Origin: Lepisosteus oculatus
Lineage: Eukaryota; Chordata; Actinopteri; Semionotiformes; Lepisosteidae
Length of the DNA: 64,000 bases
Direction: 5' to 3'
NCBI RefSeq assembly: GCF_040954835.1
Contig: NW_027167687.1
Span: 33,501-97,500 of the forward strand
Every line of letters starts with the position of its first letter. Position 1 is the first letter of the stretch. The position numbers and the translations under genes are program-made. The notes beneath the pieces are model-generated. The model did not search any database, was not told the origin of the DNA, and saw only the letters and a program-made list of their open reading frames with translations. Positions 33,300-64,000 of this stretch are shown one piece after another.

Positions 33300-33905
33300 A
33301 AAGAGGAAGAATCTAAACACGAAGCCTCTTTGTATACAAACTGGCTGAATGAAACTGATAATGAGGGGGATATGAGTAATTTGTGGTATAAATTTATAAA
33401 TCATACTGTAAAGTTAAAGAAATTTAATGCATCTTGTTATATATGTGCTTTAATGCCTCATTCTACAGCCTCACCCATGCGACTTTTTATGAAATGTACT
33501 CTTTTATTAATATCATGTTAGAAGGCTTAGACGCTATCAAACAAGAATTAAGGGGAGTTAGATTAATGGCACTTCAGAACAGGTTCGTGCTGGACCTTCA
33601 AAATGCAGCATCTGGAGGAGTCTATGCTTTAGTAGGAGACTCCTGTTGTACATATATTCCAGCTAATGACTATGATTACGGAAATCTTACACTCGCTATT
33701 CAGCATTTAAAAGAACTAAAAGACAAGGTGAATAAAGAGAGAGGCATAAAAGATACACCGGCTTTTCTCTCCTGGTTAGAATCACTGTTTGGGCCAGGGG
33801 GAATGTTTTTCTTTTAAGTTACTAACACCGATTATAGGGGCTGTGATACTTGTCTTCCTGTTTTTATGTTGCTGTATGACATGTATTATTCCAATGCTTC
33901 GAAAT
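33300..33905 (+). pseudogene. ERV2 env transmembrane subunit remnant
   Basis: The frame starting at 33434 contains a heptad-like stretch, then LQNRFVLDLQNAASGGVY, an immunosuppressive-domain-like region followed by a CX6CC-type motif whose first Cys is replaced by Tyr (GVYALVGDSCC). A frameshift near 33815 moves the membrane span (IIGAVILVFLFL) into another frame. Upstream 33300-33500 is another frame of the same protein. It is clearly inactive. Fish gammaretrovirus-like env is the best match I can offer. Confidence 0.7.
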
Positions 33906-55656: not shown

Positions 55657-56480
55657 CGGAGCGAGCCGCAGGGAAGGCTCGCTCCGTGCGCACACGTCCT
55701 TTCGATGCCAGTCCAACAAGTGCTCCGCATTAGCTGCGTCGGGGCCCCGGCGTGTCGCACCTCACCTCACCTCGCACTGCCCCCTCCTTGAATGTCTGCC
55801 GCTGGGCATGCCCTGCTCTCCTCCGCCTTATCTTATCGCGTGTGAGCACCGACAATGGCCACAATGCCGGGGAATGGCACCTGTAAAGTGTTAATTAGGG
55901 CACAGGAACAGCCCGTCTCGTCTCGGGGGGGGCGGCTTCAGAGACAATACAGCAAACACAGCGGGGCGGGGGAAGAAGACGACACCACACATGCGGGTAC
56001 ATTCAGCTCCGGCGGGAACGAGACATTTGTCGGTCTTTTCAAGTGCCGAGAGCCGAGCAATCCTTCACTTGTATCGTTTCTCCCCGGTGACTAGATCTGG
56101 CCCTGCGACTCTCGACTGGGCTCACCCCCGGGGCAGCCCAGCAGGTGTGAGCCTGGCCGGCACCCGGATGGGAGATTCCACCCCGGAAAAGCTCCGGTTG
56201 CTGCTGCTCCTGCAAGAGGTGTGACTGGGACCAGTAGGGAGCGTTCACCCTGCGGGCTGTGTGGCTCTCTTACGCCCCAGCCTCCTGATGGCGACACTCT
56301 GCTGCACAAACAGGCGCCGTCCTTCAGGGGAGGCGTCAAACCGAGGTCCCGACCCTCCTTGGCCATTAGGAAACCCCAGGGCGTCTCTCAAAAAGAGACG
56401 CCGGGGGTGTCCCTCTGGTGTTAGTGCTCCCCTTTACCCATCAGTCGGGGTCTCCTCCTAATCCCCGTCTCACCTGTAAC
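55657..56480. repeat. GC-rich block of 5S/U1 unit, copy 1 (contains 5S-derived SINE)
   Basis: About 810 bp nearly identical to 63190-64000. The second half (56099-56480) is a 5S-derived SINE: AGCAGGTGTGAGCCTGGCCGG, ACCCGGATGGGAG, then CGTCAAACCGAGGTCC and the hairpin GGCGTCTCTCAAAAAGAGAC. The first half is spacer. Open frames are shared by both copies but look like repeat sequence. Confidence 0.88.
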
Positions 56481-56527
56481 AATCAATGACGAGGCCCCCC
56501 TGTCCGTGAGATTTAGTACTCGCGCAA

Positions 56528-56640
56528 GAGACCGGGGGAAGAGCGCGAACGCGGTCCCCCGCCCCCCACAAAGTGCGCGCTCCGGGTTCCCTCTCGGGGC
56601 CCTGCAACACAGCGGAAGGGCAGCGAGAAGGAGCCTCTTG
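56528..56640 (-). pseudogene. Possible diverged U1 snRNA 3' part
   Basis: The plus-strand run GAGCGCGAACGCGGTCCCCC closely resembles the complement of the U1 3' end, seen exactly at 57768-57787. The following 80 bp are only weakly similar. If real, it would be the remnant of a U1 gene in the neighbouring array unit. Weak evidence. Confidence 0.3.
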
Positions 56641-57007
56641 CTCTGACGGCGCAAGGCCACAAGAGGGCGGAGGCGCCGCGCGCCCGGCCGACGTGTTGGA
56701 CCGGTGCGCTTTACGTGCTGAAATAAACACGCGAAAGCCCCGAAATGTTTCCAGAGTGCTGTGCACTGGAGGTTTTTGTCTGGTGAAGACTTGCCTGGTG
56801 CTCCTCCGTGCAGATTGTTTGTCCTCCTCCAGTGCGGGACGAGCCAACACAAGGGAGCGCATTCCCCAACATCCAGGCACGCAATGCGATTTGGAAAGCA
56901 GCTCCTTTCCAAAGAGTTGCACACGAACGATCCTTCAGTCCCGCTCGGGGGGCACGGAGCCCCCGCCACACACAGCTTCAAGTAGCGAGTCAGGCGCCAG
57001 GGCTTTC

Positions 57008-57126
57008 GCTTACGGCCACACCACCCTGAACAAGCCTGATCTCGTCTGATCTCGGAAGCTAAGCAGGGTTGGGCCTGGTTAGTACTTGGATGGGAGTCCG
57101 CCTGGGAATACCAGGTGCTGTAAGCT
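57008..57126 (+). rRNA. 5S ribosomal RNA
   Basis: This gene of about 119 nt begins GCTTACGGCCACACCACCCT and ends GGTGCTGTAAGC. The internal control region is present: A box GCTAAGCAGGGTTGGGCC, intermediate element TTGGATGGGAG, C box. A TTTT terminator follows at once. There are a few differences from the usual vertebrate sequence (AACAAGCC, GGGTTGGG, GAGTCCGCC). The terminal stem pairs perfectly (GCTTACGG with CTGTAAGC). It is likely functional or a recent variant. Confidence 0.93.
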
Positions 57127-57739
57127 TTTGCTCTCCCGGCCAGCAGGGGTCGCCGTTGGTGCCGTAGGCTTTGGGAGGAAAACCTGCAGGATGGAAAGGT
57201 GATCTATAGCCTCATCTCTAGAGATGTTTTGTTGCTGTGGCATGTGTGTGACCCATATTCAAAAAAAAAACCCGTCTGTAAAACGAATATCGAAGCTGCC
57301 TCTAAATCTGCAAATGAAGATGAGTCGATAAACCACTCGTTTTTCGTATAACTAGACATATATTCATTTGTTACCGATTTCATTCATTGAGCACGGATAC
57401 AATAGAGGTACAGCCATTCACTGTTTGACATGTCTGCACTGGTACAGAACCGAGCAATCAGAAAACGGGTGAAACTGTCTTTAGACTCAGCATACAGTAC
57501 CGAGGCCCCCCATGACCAAATAAAGGCTAACCTCGATAATCAGCCTAAAGAACGCAGACTACAGCAAAACGACTGACTTTGAAAAGGGAATGAACGTCCG
57601 GAAGGAGTAGTGGAACTAGCTTGAGATGCTTCTCCGGACCCCTAACTAAAAGCCAGCGAGAACCAGCAGCGGCGTCCACTCCTGTCGAACCGGGATCCTT
57701 CCGCAGCCACGCAGCTCGTGGTGTCCTAACCCTCCCGTA
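57127..57739. other. 5S-U1 intergenic spacer
   Basis: No gene recognised. It ends with the U1 3' box. Confidence 0.5.
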
Positions 57740-57752
57740 TCTGATTTTGGAC
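57740..57752 (-). promoter_or_regulatory. U1 snRNA 3' box
   Basis: On the minus strand GTCCAAAATCAGA lies 9 bp after the U1 3' end and fits GTTTN0-3AAARNNAGA with two changes in the GTTT part. Confidence 0.7.
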
Positions 57753-57761
57753 CAAGCACAT

Positions 57762-57886
57762 CAGGGGAGAGCGCGAACGCAGTCCCCCACTACCAGAAAT
57801 TATGCAGTCGAGATTCCCACATTTGGGGAATTCGCAGGGGTCAGCACAGCCGGAGTGCAATGGCCGAGCCTCGCCCTGGGTGAACC
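57762..57886 (-). pseudogene. U1 snRNA, 3' part (nt 40-164), split by LINE
   Basis: On the minus strand, GGTTCACCCAGGGCG is followed by the rest of U1: stem-loop II and III sequence (CATTGCACTCCGG, CCCCAAATGTGGG), Sm site ATAATTTCTGG and 3' stem-loop ending CTCTCCCCTG. The bases 57872-57886 are the duplicated target. With 62675-62728 and one duplication copy removed the gene is exactly 164 nt, the standard U1 length. The body looks intact, so the gene was probably good before insertion. Confidence 0.95.
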
Positions 57887-58089
57887 GATTTCGATTTTTA
57901 AGAACTTTATTTTCTTTTCACAAAAAAATACAGGAAATCACAAATCAGAAAGCTTTACATTAATATACATACTTAAAACAGTATATATGATCACATCTCA
58001 TTACATTTTGACACGGAACCAGTTACATAGCAACAATTTCTTTTTTTCTGGTGCAAATCACATTCTTTACTTAAACATGATAATGTTTT

Positions 58090-61000
58090 TCACAGTTTCT
58101 TGAGATACTGTCCAATGCCCTCTATTTCCCACAGATTTTCTGCTTCCTCCCTCCCTTCTCTCCACAGATCTCTGAGGTAATAGTTCTCTCGGGTGATGAA
58201 CAGGGCCAGGCTACCTGCTGCCTTGACTGGGACCTTGATGCCTTTGAACAGCCCCATGTTCCTAACTCTCCACAGGGCGTCTTTCCCACTGTTCACCACG
58301 GCCCAGATCCTGTCAAACACGTCAGGAGGAAGCTTGACAGGAGAGATGCCGTATATGATGAAAGCAGCGGTCAGGGTAAATTGGGGCGAGAGAGCCTGCA
58401 ACCAATCTTCAAACTGTGCCCAGAAGGCCTTAGCAAAAAAGCAGGACCACAGGAGGTGGGTCACAGTCTCCTCCTCGCCGCAGCCCACCCTAACGCAGCG
58501 AGGGCTGGGGGTGAGGCCCCTACGGTACAAGAAAGTTCGTACCGGTAAGCACTGGTGGACGACACTCCAGGCTAAATCTCTGTGAATGTTGCACAGAAAT
58601 TTAGAGGATGTGTGTTTCCACACCTTCCTTGTTTGGGCTGATGTTAAAATGCCCACAGGGGTCTGCCTATTGTTCTGGGGTGCTACGAAATCTTCCAGTT
58701 TTTGGACGCTGACATCTCGGAGGGGAATATGGCCAATTGGGTGAGATCTTAGAAAACTTTTAACTGTCCCATAAATTGCAGGGCATGTGTCAGAGAGTGG
58801 GACGTCCAGCTTGGGTCTGACACCCCACACTCTGAACACCTCCCTACCTACCCAGAGCCTGGAAAAATAAGTCCAGGTACGCGCTGCAGGTGCTGTTGCA
58901 AAGCCTCTCAGCACAGAGGCCAGGAAAATGCACAGCAGCTTCGTAGCAATATCTGGGACAGACTTCCCCCCTGAGGGTAGCGGCCTGTACATTATTTCCC
59001 TTCTGAGTCTTTCCTGCTTCCCACCCCATAGAAATTGAAACATCAATCTCCTCAGCACCGCCGCAACACGGTGTGGGATTGGGAAGGTAGAAGCCAGAAA
59101 ATTCAAGACAGGCAAGAGCTCGGCTTTGATGACCAGCACCTTCCCTGTCATGGTGAGGTCTCGGTCCTTCCATTGCATCAGTTTTTTGTTTAAGATTGGC
59201 AATTTGTTCTGCCAATTTACTGTTCCCATCTCTTCTCCAAAATACACCCCCAGGACCTTAATTCTCCTCTCTTGCAGCCTGAGATCATGTCCTTCTTTTG
59301 GCTCCCTCCAGTTCTGATAAAAAATCTCACTCTTAGATGTGTTAATTTTTGCGGAGGAAGCCAAAGAGAACCGATCACAGCACTGCAGAGCTCTGCTAAT
59401 TGAGGCATTGTCAGAGAGGAGCAGGGTGACGTCATCCATGTATAGAGATGTCTTTACCTCTCCTCCCCCACTTCCAGGCACTGGTATCCCATTAATGGCC
59501 TGATCCTGGCGCAAGGCACAGGCTAAGGGCTCCATAGCCAAAACGAATAACAAGGGGGATAATGGGCAGCCCTGCCTCACCCCTGAACAGACTTCAAAGG
59601 TGCGTGATCTATTGCCATTAACCATGACTCTGCTGTTGCTACCTGTGTACAGCAGGTTAATCCACTTTCTCATGATGGGGCCAAACTTCATGTGCTCAAG
59701 TACCGATGTTAAGTACTGCCGGTTTAGGCGGTCAAAGGCCTTTTCTAGGTCTACACCTAAAATGCACAGAGGGAGGGAGCGATCCTCAGAGTACAGACAG
59801 ACATCCCTCAACAAGGCCAGGTTGTCGCTCATCAGGCGTCCTGCTATCCCACAAGTCTGTTCTTTCCCTACCAGTGAGGCCACTACATTTTGTAGGCGCA
59901 GGAAAAGGGCTTTGGACAGGATCTTAGTGTCTACGCCTAACAGGCTGAGGGGTCTCCAGTTCTTTATGTCATTTTTTGCTCCTTTCTTAAACAAGAGAGA
60001 GATAGTGCCTTCTCTTAAGGAGTCAGGCAGCAATTCTGTCTTGTAGCTTTCCTCGAATAGGAGCAGTAGCGGATCCTGAAGCAGATCCCAAAAGGTGCAA
60101 TAAAATTCTTTAGGGAGCCCGTCAGCACCCGGAGTTTTCCCCTTCTGTAAGCTCTCCATAGCCTGTCTCAGCTCTTCTACTGTCAAATCCCTCTCAAGTA
60201 CTTCCCTATCTTCTTCACTCAAAATGTTTTCTAGCTTTGAGGTAAAAAAATGAATATCTTCATCCTTTACCTCTGTAGAGCTGTACAGTCTTGAGTAGAA
60301 GGCCTCGGTGCAGGAGAGGATAGCACTCGGCTCTGTTCTCTCTCGTCCCTCCTCATCAACTACACTTTCCATGACAGTCTTGGAGCCTACCACTTTCCTG
60401 AAAAAGAAGCGAGTACACTTCTCATTTTCTTCCAAGAACTGCACTCTGCTTCTTAACAGCACTCCTCGACTACTTTCTTCGGCTATGCTCCGGATGTCCT
60501 TTTTTAAAAGGGCGATATCCTCGAGCACATCGAAGCCACTGTGCAGCATCGTGTAGAGACGCTGCAGCTGCCTCTGTTTCCTGGCTAGCACTCCTCTCCG
60601 TCTGGCAGCAGCCTTCCTTCCCTCAGCCATGAAAAAGGCCTTTGTCCTCACCTTCACCTCCTCCCACCACTCTCCTACTGACCCGTACAGACACTGCAAG
60701 GACAGCCACTGTGATAGTTTCTCCTTGTAGCGGGATACTACCCCCTCGTTCTCTAGCAGCTTTGTGTTGAGTTTCCAGAGGCCTGGGCCAAAGACAGTCC
60801 CGCCCTGGAGTTCCACTCTACACCCTAAAGCCTGATGATCTGAGAAGAAGACAGGCTGAAGAGTGACCCCAACAACTTTCACTCTCTCTGAGACAAAGCA
60901 ATAGTCAATTCTGGAGCTGCTATTCCTCCCTGACCATGTATATCCTGCTGTTGTGGGATATATACATCTATATGTGTCTGAGAGTTTAAAGTCTTGAACT

Positions 61001-61509
61001 AAGTTTTGCAGGGCCAGTGAGCTGGAATCCAATTTTATCGGCGAGCTAGACTGCCTGTCTGTGTGCTCTAAGATACAATTAAAATCCCCTCCCACTATCA
61101 CGTCTGTGCTGCATAACAATAGGGGGGAGAGTGCCTTGAGTAGCTCCACCCTTCCTCCTACGTCAGTAGGGCAATACACATTGATTAGCCGCAGGTTAAC
61201 GGTCCCCCATTCCACATCCACACACAGCAACCTGCCATCTATGACCCTCTGAATACTTTTCAATTTGAATGCCCATCCTTTGAAAAGAATGGCCACGCCA
61301 GAGGCTCTGTTGTTATTGTCCCCTGACCAAACAGAAGGCCCTTTATCCCACCTATCTTCAAAACTTTTATACCTCTCTTGATAGGCTAAAGCACACTCCT
61401 GCAACATCAACACATCTCCCTCTCTCTGCTGGAGGTAATCAAAGACAGACTGGCATTTAACTCTGTCATTGATACCTCTTGTGTTAAGAGAAATTATGTT
61501 AAGAGCCAT
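58090..61509 (-). CDS. LINE ORF2: endonuclease / reverse transcriptase, intact
   Basis: About 1139 codons from the ATG at 61509 (MALNIISLNTRG, the usual start just before the endonuclease). The frame stays open 13 codons further upstream and overlaps ORF1 by 13 bp. Endonuclease: LNTRGI, MLQECAL, INVYCPTD, GGDFNCI, FSDHQAL. RT: KNWRPLSLLG, GVDLEKAFDRL, GVRQGCPLSPLL and TSLYMDDVTLL (YMDD). A C-terminal Cys/His region CVRVGCGEEETVTHLLWSC is intact, unlike the counterpart at 26561. No stop or frameshift, so the insertion is recent or selection was recent. Confidence 0.93.
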   Translation of the reverse strand: MALNIISLNTRGINDRVKCQSVFDYLQQREGDVLMLQECALAYQERYKSFEDRWDKGPSVWSGDNNNRASGVAILFKGWAFKLKSIQRVIDGRLLCVDVEWGTVNLRLINVYCPTDVGGRVELLKALSPLLLCSTDVIVGGDFNCILEHTDRQSSSPIKLDSSSLALQNLVQDFKLSDTYRCIYPTTAGYTWSGRNSSSRIDYCFVSERVKVVGVTLQPVFFSDHQALGCRVELQGGTVFGPGLWKLNTKLLENEGVVSRYKEKLSQWLSLQCLYGSVGEWWEEVKVRTKAFFMAEGRKAAARRRGVLARKQRQLQRLYTMLHSGFDVLEDIALLKKDIRSIAEESSRGVLLRSRVQFLEENEKCTRFFFRKVVGSKTVMESVVDEEGRERTEPSAILSCTEAFYSRLYSSTEVKDEDIHFFTSKLENILSEEDREVLERDLTVEELRQAMESLQKGKTPGADGLPKEFYCTFWDLLQDPLLLLFEESYKTELLPDSLREGTISLLFKKGAKNDIKNWRPLSLLGVDTKILSKALFLRLQNVVASLVGKEQTCGIAGRLMSDNLALLRDVCLYSEDRSLPLCILGVDLEKAFDRLNRQYLTSVLEHMKFGPIMRKWINLLYTGSNSRVMVNGNRSRTFEVCSGVRQGCPLSPLLFVLAMEPLACALRQDQAINGIPVPGSGGGEVKTSLYMDDVTLLLSDNASISRALQCCDRFSLASSAKINTSKSEIFYQNWREPKEGHDLRLQERRIKVLGVYFGEEMGTVNWQNKLPILNKKLMQWKDRDLTMTGKVLVIKAELLPVLNFLASTFPIPHRVAAVLRRLMFQFLWGGKQERLRREIMYRPLPSGGKSVPDIATKLLCIFLASVLRGFATAPAARTWTYFSRLWVGREVFRVWGVRPKLDVPLSDTCPAIYGTVKSFLRSHPIGHIPLRDVSVQKLEDFVAPQNNRQTPVGILTSAQTRKVWKHTSSKFLCNIHRDLAWSVVHQCLPVRTFLYRRGLTPSPRCVRVGCGEEETVTHLLWSCFFAKAFWAQFEDWLQALSPQFTLTAAFIIYGISPVKLPPDVFDRIWAVVNSGKDALWRVRNMGLFKGIKVPVKAAGSLALFITRENYYLRDLWREGREEAENLWEIEGIGQYLKKL

Positions 61510-61535
61510 ATTACATAAGAAAGTGGAACCAGTCT

Positions 61536-62674
61536 TTACAAAACACATTTCTCTTCGGTCTCACCTGTTACCTTTTTCTTTTTCTTTTTCTTCTTACCAA
61601 TTTCCTGCCAGCCATCCTCTGAATGAGCCTTCATCAGGGTGGCAGCAGTAAAAGCGTTCACAGAGTCCATTTCAAGGAAGGGGGTAGAGGGAGGGGTGGA
61701 GAGGTTCCAGCTGTCCCCATCGCCATGCTCTCCTTCCTCCTCGCTCGGGGAGAAAACAGAGTCATTTTTTCTTTTCCTCAAGTCCAGCTCCTGGGAGCAC
61801 TGAGGGGAAAGGGGTGCAGCCGATGCACCAGTCTCCTCTTCCCCCTCACCCACCAGCTGCTGCAGATCCTCCGTGATGGACTGGATGGAGGAGAGGAGGG
61901 CATCTGTAGCACTTGCAGAGTCTGAGAAAAGCAGCTCCGCTGAATCCTGGGTATCCTCGCTGGACCCGCTCCACCGGGGGGCCCCACACTGGCCCTCGTT
62001 CTGAGGAGCAGGAGTGGGGGAGGGGTCCTCGCTGTTCTCGGGGGTTTTCAAACCCTCGTGCTTGTCTGGTGCAGTCTGCGGTTGTGGGGGCGTAGTGGAT
62101 TTCTCTTCCACCAGCCCCGGAGCCACAGCAGGACTGATCCTGGCTGGAGGCTGAGAGTCTTTGTCCAACAAGGGTTCTTTGTTTGACTTGTTGTTTGCTT
62201 TGGATTTTCGGGCCGGTTTGGCTGAAACAAGCACTGCCTCATCCTTTCTCATTTTGAGTTTATTGGCGTAGGCGTGAGGGCAGTTCTTAAAAACGTGTCC
62301 TTCCGAGCCACATAAATTGCACTTTGGCAGCATTGAACAGTCAGAGGCTAAATGTCCCTGTTTGCCACAGGTCTTGCAGCATTTCACAGTGCAGGACGAT
62401 GCCAGGTGTCCCACAGCACCACAGCGCCGACACACCTTTGGTTGTCCCACATAAAACACATAGCCATTGCAGGCGCCCAGCCGGATTGTAGAGGGCAGGT
62501 GCCTTAAGCCTCCATTTACGCTGTCCGGTAGCAAGCGAACCTCGAATTTCCTTGCTCCTGTTTTTATACCATCAACATCTCTAACCTCAGTTCCATGGTG
62601 GACGGTGCAGTACTGGTTAAGCCAGGTGTGAATGTCCTCCGTCTTTGCCAGTTCCGAGAACATAACAACATGCA
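61536..62674 (-). pseudogene. LINE ORF1, 5'-truncated
   Basis: An open frame of about 379 codons runs from the LINE/U1 junction. Three CX2CX4HX4C knuckles (CRRCGAVGHLASSC, CKTCGKQGHLASDC, CNLCGSEGHVFKNC) near residues 80-130 are followed by a Ser/Pro/Glu-rich tail and a terminal Lys run. Compared with the other LINE about 110 N-terminal residues and the 5' UTR are missing. The frame continues into U1 sequence, but no authentic start codon is present. Confidence 0.9.
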
Positions 62675-62728
62675 CGCCCTGGGTGAACCTCCTTCTTGAT
62701 CAAGGTATCTCCCCTGCCAGGTAAGTAT
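62675..62728 (-). pseudogene. U1 snRNA, 5' part (nt 1-54)
   Basis: On the minus strand it starts ATACTTACCTGGCAGGGGAG, with the complete 5'-splice-site-pairing sequence ACTTACCTG and most of stem-loop I. It ends with the duplicated GGTTCACCCAGGGCG. Upstream (62729-63189) is presumably the U1 promoter region, but no proximal sequence element was recognised with confidence. Confidence 0.95.
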
Positions 62729-63189
62729 GAGTTAAACAGGCCCCTGCAAGCGGCCCGCACCCACAGCACAAATCGCACAGCCTAGGCCACCTCCTCGCCC
62801 CGCACGCCACCGCCTCCTGCTGGGCCCACTCTTTCACACACTCACACGCCACACTAACACTCAAAAGTGTGGGCAAAACGAGAAAACGAGCGCGCCGTTT
62901 CCTACACATCTGCAGTCGCCGTTGCGCATTCGCAGCATGTCCCGGGATGCAATTCGGCCTCATTTGCATAACTCCAGACCGGCAGATCGCCACGCAAGCT
63001 CGCGACGTGCGCCTGCCACACACCGAACAAACCTTTTCAGCAATTTCCAAAAAACGGGCCTGCTCGCCTGCCCACAAGGCTCCGTCTCTTACCTGCTCTC
63101 CAGAGCCTGCTGCCTTCTGTGCTTTTCTCTCGGCACCGCTGCAGTGCACACAACTCCTGCAGCGGGAGGGGGGGAGAAAGATCCCGCGC
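62729..63189. other. U1 upstream region
   Basis: GC-rich sequence before the U1 start. No RNA gene or coding region. Expected to hold the snRNA promoter by position only. Confidence 0.4.
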
Positions 63190-64000
63190 TCCGCAGCAGG
63201 GAAGGCTCGCTCCGTGCGCACACGTCCTTTCGATGCCAGTCCAACAAGTGCTCCGCATTAGCTGCGTCGGGGCTCCGGCGTGTCGCACCTCACCTCACCT
63301 CGCACTGCCCCCTCCTTGAATGTCTGCCGCTGGGCATGCCCCGCTCTCCTCCGCCTTATCTTATCGCGTGTGAGCACCGACAATGGCCACAATGCCGGGG
63401 AATGGCACCTGTAAAGTGTTAATTGGGGCACAGGAACAGCCCGTCTCGTCTCGGGGGGGCCGGCTTCAGAGACAATACAGCAAACACAGCGGGGCGGGGG
63501 AAGAAGACGACACCACACATGCGGGTACATTCAGCTCCGGCGGGAACGAGACATTTGTCGGTCTTTTCAAGTGCCGAGAGCCGAGCAATCCTTCACTTGT
63601 ATCGTTTCTCCCCGGTGACTAGATCTGGCCCTGCGACTCTCGACTGGGCTCACCCCCGGGGCAGCCCAGCAGGTGTGAGCCTGGCCGGCACCCGGATGGG
63701 AGATTCCACCCCGGAAAAGCTCCGGTTACTGCTGCTCCTGCAAGAGGTGTGACTGGGACCAGTAGGGAGCGCTCACCCAGCGGGCTGTGTGGCTCTCTTA
63801 CGCCCCAGCCTCCTGATGGCGACACTCTGCTGCACAAACAGGCGCCGTCCTTCGGGGGAGGCGTCAAACCGAGGTCCCGACCCTCCTTGGCCATTAGGAA
63901 ACCCCAGGGCGTCTCTCAAAAAGAGACGCCGGGGGTGTCCCTCTGGTGTTAGTGCTCCGCTTTACCCATCAGTCGGGGTCTCCTCCTAATCCCCGTCTCA
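63190..64000. repeat. GC-rich block of 5S/U1 unit, copy 2 (contains 5S-derived SINE)
   Basis: Nearly identical to 55670-56480 and cut by the window end. The 5S-derived SINE part is 63628-64000. Its position upstream of U1 here, and upstream of the 5S gene in copy 1, suggests a tandem unit of about 2.7 kb once the LINE is discounted. Confidence 0.88.

Follow-up and report, generated by a model that had tools for sequence, protein, structure and literature searches.

An interrupted U1 snRNA gene

We analyzed a stretch of 64,000 nucleotides (nt) of Lepisosteus oculatus DNA (the window; positions 33,501 to 97,500 of contig NW_027167687.1, here C68) in which a U1 small nuclear RNA (snRNA) gene is interrupted by a long interspersed nuclear element (LINE), both on the minus strand. 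The 5′ part of the gene, U1 nt 1–54, occupies 62675..62728 (Rfam U1 match 62728–62601) and the 3′ part, nt 40–164, occupies 57762..57886; Rfam detects both pieces (E = 4.3e-23 and 2e-07). Between them stands a LINE of 4,788 bp, denoted copy A (57887..62674). An original prediction made from the letters alone had described this arrangement, and the two halves are seen where it placed them. The sequence GGTTCACCCAGGGCG, corresponding to U1 nt 40–54, is present at the 5′ edge (62675..62689) and again at the 3′ edge (57872..57886) of the LINE, as expected of a target-site duplication. A motif scan of the window with GGTTCACCCAGGGCG, written here in U1 sense (it was earlier given as the complement), matched at these two edges only with up to 2 mismatches, and shuffled sequences gave a mean of 0.15 matches, with two matches reached in 0 of 100. 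The predicted repeat at both edges is thus present, and its predicted length of 15 bp becomes 14–15 bp, since the final G may belong to the LINE (1-nt overlap).

Joining the halves with one copy of the duplication yields 164 nt, the normal U1 length that had been foreseen. The joined gene is identical to human U1 at 151 of 164 positions and to each of eight intact U1 genes fetched from the same genome at 162–163 of 164. The target sequence occurs once in each of these eight genes, which thus show the site in its empty state. An octamer, ATGCAAAT, similar to a distal sequence element (DSE), is located at −241 relative to the U1 start (62962..62969, minus strand) and suggests a functional promoter. 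The sequence after the gene, GGTCCAAAATCAGA (57740..57753, minus strand), was labeled 3′-box-like by eye, against the 3′ box consensus.

The LINE encodes two open reading frames (ORFs) on the minus strand. ORF2 (58090..61548) is open over 1,152 codons, in agreement with the claim that it is intact, and contains an apurinic/apyrimidinic (AP)-type endonuclease at its N-terminus, a reverse transcriptase and a zf-RVT domain (PF03372, E = 4e-15; PF00078, E = 1.3e-34). The motifs GGDFN, SRIDY, FSDH and YMDD (the last in the reverse transcriptase) are present, and the best solved relative by sequence is the LINE-1 ORF2 protein (8sxt, E = 1.3e-90). The remainder of ORF1 (61536..62675) comprises residues 97–475 of 475, with the second ZCCHC3-type RNA-binding domain, at position 1 of which it begins, and CCHC zinc knuckles (matches to PF00098 and PF23058). 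Copy A is 5′-truncated by 357 nt relative to the full-length copy B described below; as full-length copies carry these 357 nt and an ORF1 of 475 amino acids, copy A has lost the first 96 residues. The 3′ untranslated region (UTR) (57887..58089, minus strand) ends in AATAAAGTTCTTAAAAATCGAAATC and, as claimed, has no poly(A) tail, though AATAAA lies close to the LINE 3′ end.

A protein of the alligator gar, Atractosteus spatula (P0092), is 96% identical over 94% of the ORF1 query and 23 residues longer upstream. It is named ZCHC3 by its source; a LINE ORF1 has seemingly been annotated as a host gene.

Further copies share one 3′ junction

We searched the assembly (1,200,105,466 bases in 813 contigs) for the U1 family. 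Of 22,159 first-look candidates 42 were scored, all of which were listed as whole, giving at least 42 U1 genes; the eight intact genes compared above are eight of the 42 listed. Contig C68 was read whole (243,230 bp, including 3,016 N) as the contig of the window, without regard to its U1 genes. It contains six whole U1 genes, copies A and B and five LINE fragments (C–G). Copy B is 99.6% identical to copy A over 4,789 columns, and these two copies provide the only two LINE 3′ ends in C68, both within U1. Further copies were retrieved from gaps between U1 genes (L037–L040 and C1a–C1c). All four fetched gaps of about 10.5 kb between listed intact U1 genes (two in contig C445, two in C369) contain a full-length copy in U1, and we take this spacing to represent an empty unit next to an occupied one. 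A 28.7-kb gap in contig C1 contains three more (C1a, C1b, C1c). Together these searches found eight U1-inserted copies besides copy A, across two kinds of U1 array.

Nine copies retain their 3′ end, and in every one the sequence continues from the LINE into U1 at nt 40; in L038 a G is missing, which allows the junction to be read at nt 40 or 41. The suggestion that this might be a U1-specific family therefore gains support within the part of the genome fetched, where the other copies continue in U1 at the same phase as copy A, with the limit that seven of the nine came from a search of gaps between U1 genes.

Comparison of the nine copies points to different insertion events. It revealed four different 3′ tails: ATCGAAATC (A, L040, C1a and C1c), ATCGAAATCGAATC (B), ATCGAAAATC (L037 and L039) and ATCGAATC (L038 and C1b). 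The single 3′ junction is also shared by three 5′ structures, namely the truncated copy A with its duplication, L039 with a doubled head, and seven copies welded at U1 nt 32. Copy A retains U1 nt 33–54 plus the 15-bp duplication. The two kinds of array differ in their surroundings. In four pairs compared, the promoters of the C1 array and of the other type are identical at 279–280 of 300 positions, whereas the downstream flanks match at only 304–309 of 600 in a forced alignment; the LINEs of the two types differ by 18–25 substitutions and 10 gap columns in about 4,600.

The 5′ junction and the U1 head

Full-length copies begin with part of U1 itself. In seven of the eight, U1 nt 1–32 are joined straight to GCCTGTAGG and nt 33–39 are lost. 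The eighth, L039, has the target's U1 nt 1–41 and then a second U1 nt 1–32 fused to the LINE. This second head starts exactly at U1 nt 1, with no U1 upstream DNA before it, which indicates that the head was brought in by the element and starts where U1 transcription does. The original prediction had missed both this head and the 5′ truncation of copy A. ORF1 (475 amino acids) and ORF2 (1,152 amino acids) are open in all eight full-length copies. The 5′ UTR between the U1 head and the ORF1 AUG is 68 nt long and leaves little room for another promoter. Judged from these sequences, transcription of the element most likely begins at U1 +1, driven by the host U1 promoter, and gives an RNA that carries the U1 head.

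The predicted fold of the leader (103 nt, copy B, L031) pairs U1 UACUUAC with GUAGGUG, a stretch of the LINE 5′ UTR that resembles a 5′ splice site. The fold as a whole is no better than those of shuffled sequences (z = −0.64).

Taken together, the evidence makes it very probable that these copies form a young LINE family, autonomous and with two ORFs, which is targeted to a single site in U1 genes and draws on the host U1 promoter.

Proposed insertion mechanism

We propose the following course of insertion. In an occupied gene, RNA polymerase II would initiate at U1 +1 and transcribe on through the LINE, so that the resulting mRNA would consist of U1 nt 1–32 followed by the element. The ORF2 protein would then nick an intact U1 gene on its non-coding strand, opposite nt 39/40, and the nick would prime reverse transcription from the short variable tail, which ends in AATC. 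With a complete complementary DNA (cDNA), the U1 head may pair with the target's own U1 5′ end; such pairing would produce a seamless join with loss of nt 33–39 and leave the inserted element downstream of an intact U1 promoter. A cDNA that stops early would give the 15-bp duplication seen in copy A, and a head that fails to pair would give the doubled head of L039. R2, a LINE of 28S ribosomal RNA (rRNA) genes, may offer a parallel, in that its cDNA may complete the 5′ junction with the help of homology to the target upstream.

Alternative explanations

Several observations weigh against a U1-targeting family that uses the U1 promoter. Sampling is one of them: the seven copies sought in gaps chosen by U1 spacing are not an unbiased sample, and LINE 3′ ends were counted in C68 and the fetched U1 gaps rather than genome-wide. 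Four LINE 5′ fragments that have lost their 3′ ends (C–F; C68 107621–108286, 166930–167595, 208691–210910 and 29109–32904, within L018–L036) lie outside U1 genes, and an internal fragment (G, C68 15187–15378) has no adjacent U1. Fragments C–F have the same 5′ flank, the antisense upstream region of a U5 gene followed by U1 nt 4–32, with CTT common to both partners; because they share this flank they probably derive from one event that was then copied, which was either a U1-headed retrocopy or a rearrangement, duplicated afterwards. A search for a proximal sequence element (PSE) identified none for the interrupted U1 gene and none shared by the window's U1, U4 and U5 genes. Finally, unequal crossing-over or gene conversion among the U1 units may account for part of the copy number, and some copies within an array, such as C1a and C1b, are probably duplicates.

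Carried to its limit, this last point becomes a rival reading in which a single chance insertion, with no preference for U1, was multiplied by tandem duplication or gene conversion of U1 units. The units are indeed tandem and alike, with pieces above 200 bp matching elsewhere in C68 at 92–99%. C1a and C1b differ at 2 of 4,600 LINE positions and have identical promoters, if different tails; L037 and L039 have a common tail, with 2 differences in 1,000 positions downstream. Against this reading stand copy A and L039, which cannot be plain nt-32-type copies yet have the same 3′ junction, and the downstream flanks in C1, which fail to align with the others. Copy A and L038 also differ at only 4 of 4,710 LINE positions but at 11 of 1,000 in the flank, and three foreign predicted proteins, discussed below, break at the same U1 codon. 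We regard this reading as very unlikely. We give equally little credence to a preference of the LINE for a short nick motif (GGTGAACC/TCCTTC on the non-coding strand), with GGTTCACC-like sites used anywhere and U1 merely the commonest bearer. LINE endonucleases usually recognize short motifs, and the 5′ fragments outside U1 would fit such a preference, but both 3′ ends in C68 lie within U1. As the 15-mer occurs in the window at the two LINE edges only, the window has no other site by which to judge this reading.

A further alternative concerns the head rather than the target: U1 nt 1–32 could be a fixed part of the element DNA, the element having a promoter of its own. Head and body do occur together in all eight full-length copies. 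In L039, however, the second head begins precisely at the U1 transcription start, with no U1 upstream DNA before it, and in fragments C–F the head falls 3 nt short of that point; such positions would be expected of an RNA 5′ end. The 68 nt before the ORF1 AUG also give an internal promoter little space. A fixed head is therefore unlikely, and we favor a head acquired by transcription from the host U1 gene.

Comparison with known target-specific elements

Among the closest known elements is Keno, a Tx1-type LINE specific for U2 snRNA genes (PMC4640811), whose site is described in a second paper as 37 nucleotides downstream of U2 (PMC6136364). Like the gar element, Keno is an AP-endonuclease LINE of fish with one site in a spliceosomal RNA gene (PMC4640811). 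The two are set apart by description, Keno targeting U2 whereas all nine junctions read here lie in U1 at nt 39/40. Among ORF2 matches with a named species, the nearest is a reverse transcriptase from Takifugu (Q76B34, 38% identity), whose family is unstated. Mutsu (5S rRNA) and Dewa (a tRNA-Leu spacer) are two LINEs of zebrafish that insert specifically at small RNA genes present in many copies (PMC3706591); compared by description, they resemble the present LINE in this habit and differ in target. Utopia is likewise an snRNA-gene-specific LINE (PMC4640811), but it has a restriction-like endonuclease and targets U2, in contrast to the AP-type endonuclease and U1 target found here.

Insertion within fish U1 genes is shared with Dada-U1 (PMC3706591, PMC8869645). 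According to these sources, Dada-U1 is a DDE DNA transposon with an unrelated protein, and it makes a 6-bp (possibly 7- or 8-bp) duplication at GCGAAT/GCGAAC elsewhere in U1. The gar element is of the reverse transcriptase type, and its 15-bp duplication lies at U1 nt 40–54. R2 resembles it in being cotranscribed with its host RNA gene (PMC3774820). An HDV-like (hepatitis delta virus) ribozyme frees the R2 RNA from the 28S cotranscript at the 5′ junction (PMC3774820), whereas in the gar element the U1 head stays on the element; the endonucleases also differ in type (restriction-like in R2, AP-type here).

According to a 2015 paper, the elements reported until then from snRNA genes were only Keno and Utopia (U2), Dada-U1 and Dada-U6 (PMC4640811). 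No U1-specific LINE is described in the accessible portions of the literature searched (the best 20 entries of long lists, Repbase and subscription papers aside). A site-specific LINE is of a known kind, and in our judgment the U1 target and the retained U1 head are what is new. A U1-targeting LINE adds a new site-specific endonuclease for studies of target recognition, and an AP-endonuclease LINE with open frames and a defined target is a candidate for the biochemistry of insertion. The weld to a U1 head presents a testable route by which a LINE could secure a strong host promoter, and the doubled head of L039 is direct sequence evidence of where the element RNA starts, which is rarely visible in genomes.

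Possible relatives in other species

To look beyond gars, we queried a protein database with the antisense reading frame that crosses the 3′ junction and sorted the 33 matches by eye. These matches were found through their similarity to U1 and were read as protein only. Three leave U1 at the insertion site, at the same codon (P0099, P0100 and P0115). A further 23 remain U1 after the site, as far as the expected stop or further, and six end near or before it and are uninformative (P0107, P0119, P0120, P0122, P0124 and P0126). One match, P0112 from Dissostichus eleginoides, reads as antisense U1 from which an internal segment, lying between the target region and the U1 5′ end, has been deleted.

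In P0115, the five residues past the break fit the tail ATCGAATC in register at 13 of 15 bases, compared with 9–10 of 15 for the other three tails. Against the window's own tail, a one-base offset also gives 13 of 15, a fit reached by 0.08% of window positions with five offsets and by 60 of 20,000 shuffles. Extending the comparison to eight residues weakens the fit (17 of 24; 1.1% of window positions, 463 of 20,000 shuffles). Two further proteins, P0113 and P0116, have the 3′ flank of P0115, but their U1 is uninterrupted. In P0099 and P0100, runs of F or L come after the break; T-rich DNA could encode such runs, which are unlike the gar element, and these two proteins may share descent. Both come from NCBI contigs and perhaps mark the use of this U1 site by another element, one with an A-tail.

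The breaks at one U1 codon in foreign proteins hint at relatives elsewhere. We tentatively propose, though we hold it to be somewhat doubtful, that U1 nt 39/40 is the target, in several animals, of a LINE lineage that predates gars and has taken over the U1 transcription start, its head welding full-length insertions behind an intact U1 promoter. The breaks in P0115, P0099 and P0100 are leads toward this proposal, as is the pairing of the U1 5′ end with GUAGGUG in the predicted leader fold, which is no better than shuffled sequences. If it is true, the element mRNA would carry the U1 5′ end, including the sequence that pairs with 5′ splice sites, and this may affect its own splicing, polyadenylation or capping.

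In a tree of ORF2 proteins, the gar element groups with proteins from contigs at 46–53% identity (support 100/99). More distant are a clade with Takifugu Q76B34 and a clade with two amphibian proteins. The tree held no sequence identified as Tx1, Keno or Mutsu. An ORF1 with CCHC knuckles is typical of the Tx1 clade, to which this LINE may belong by its resemblance.

Scans of viral and genome contigs revealed no U1-inserted relative among the matches. L001 is phage-like DNA with no Rfam match, and the places matched in L003–L009 do not continue as U1. L002 was likewise rejected as a U1-inserted relative, since it has an ORF of 30% identity and no spliceosomal RNA match. This contig, filed under an Anaerolineae metagenome-assembled genome, encodes a LINE ORF2-like protein and is probably eukaryotic contamination.

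Genomic surroundings

The interrupted U1 gene is part of a tandem repeat unit (55665..63192) that also includes a 5S rRNA gene (57008–57126, plus strand). The next unit begins at 63193 and is 98.8% identical over 808 bp. Positions 1–57126 of the window form a dense cluster of small RNA genes, in which Rfam identifies one U4, two U5, one 5S and 20 tRNA genes, and which contains many internal repeats longer than 150 bp that are 66–99% identical.

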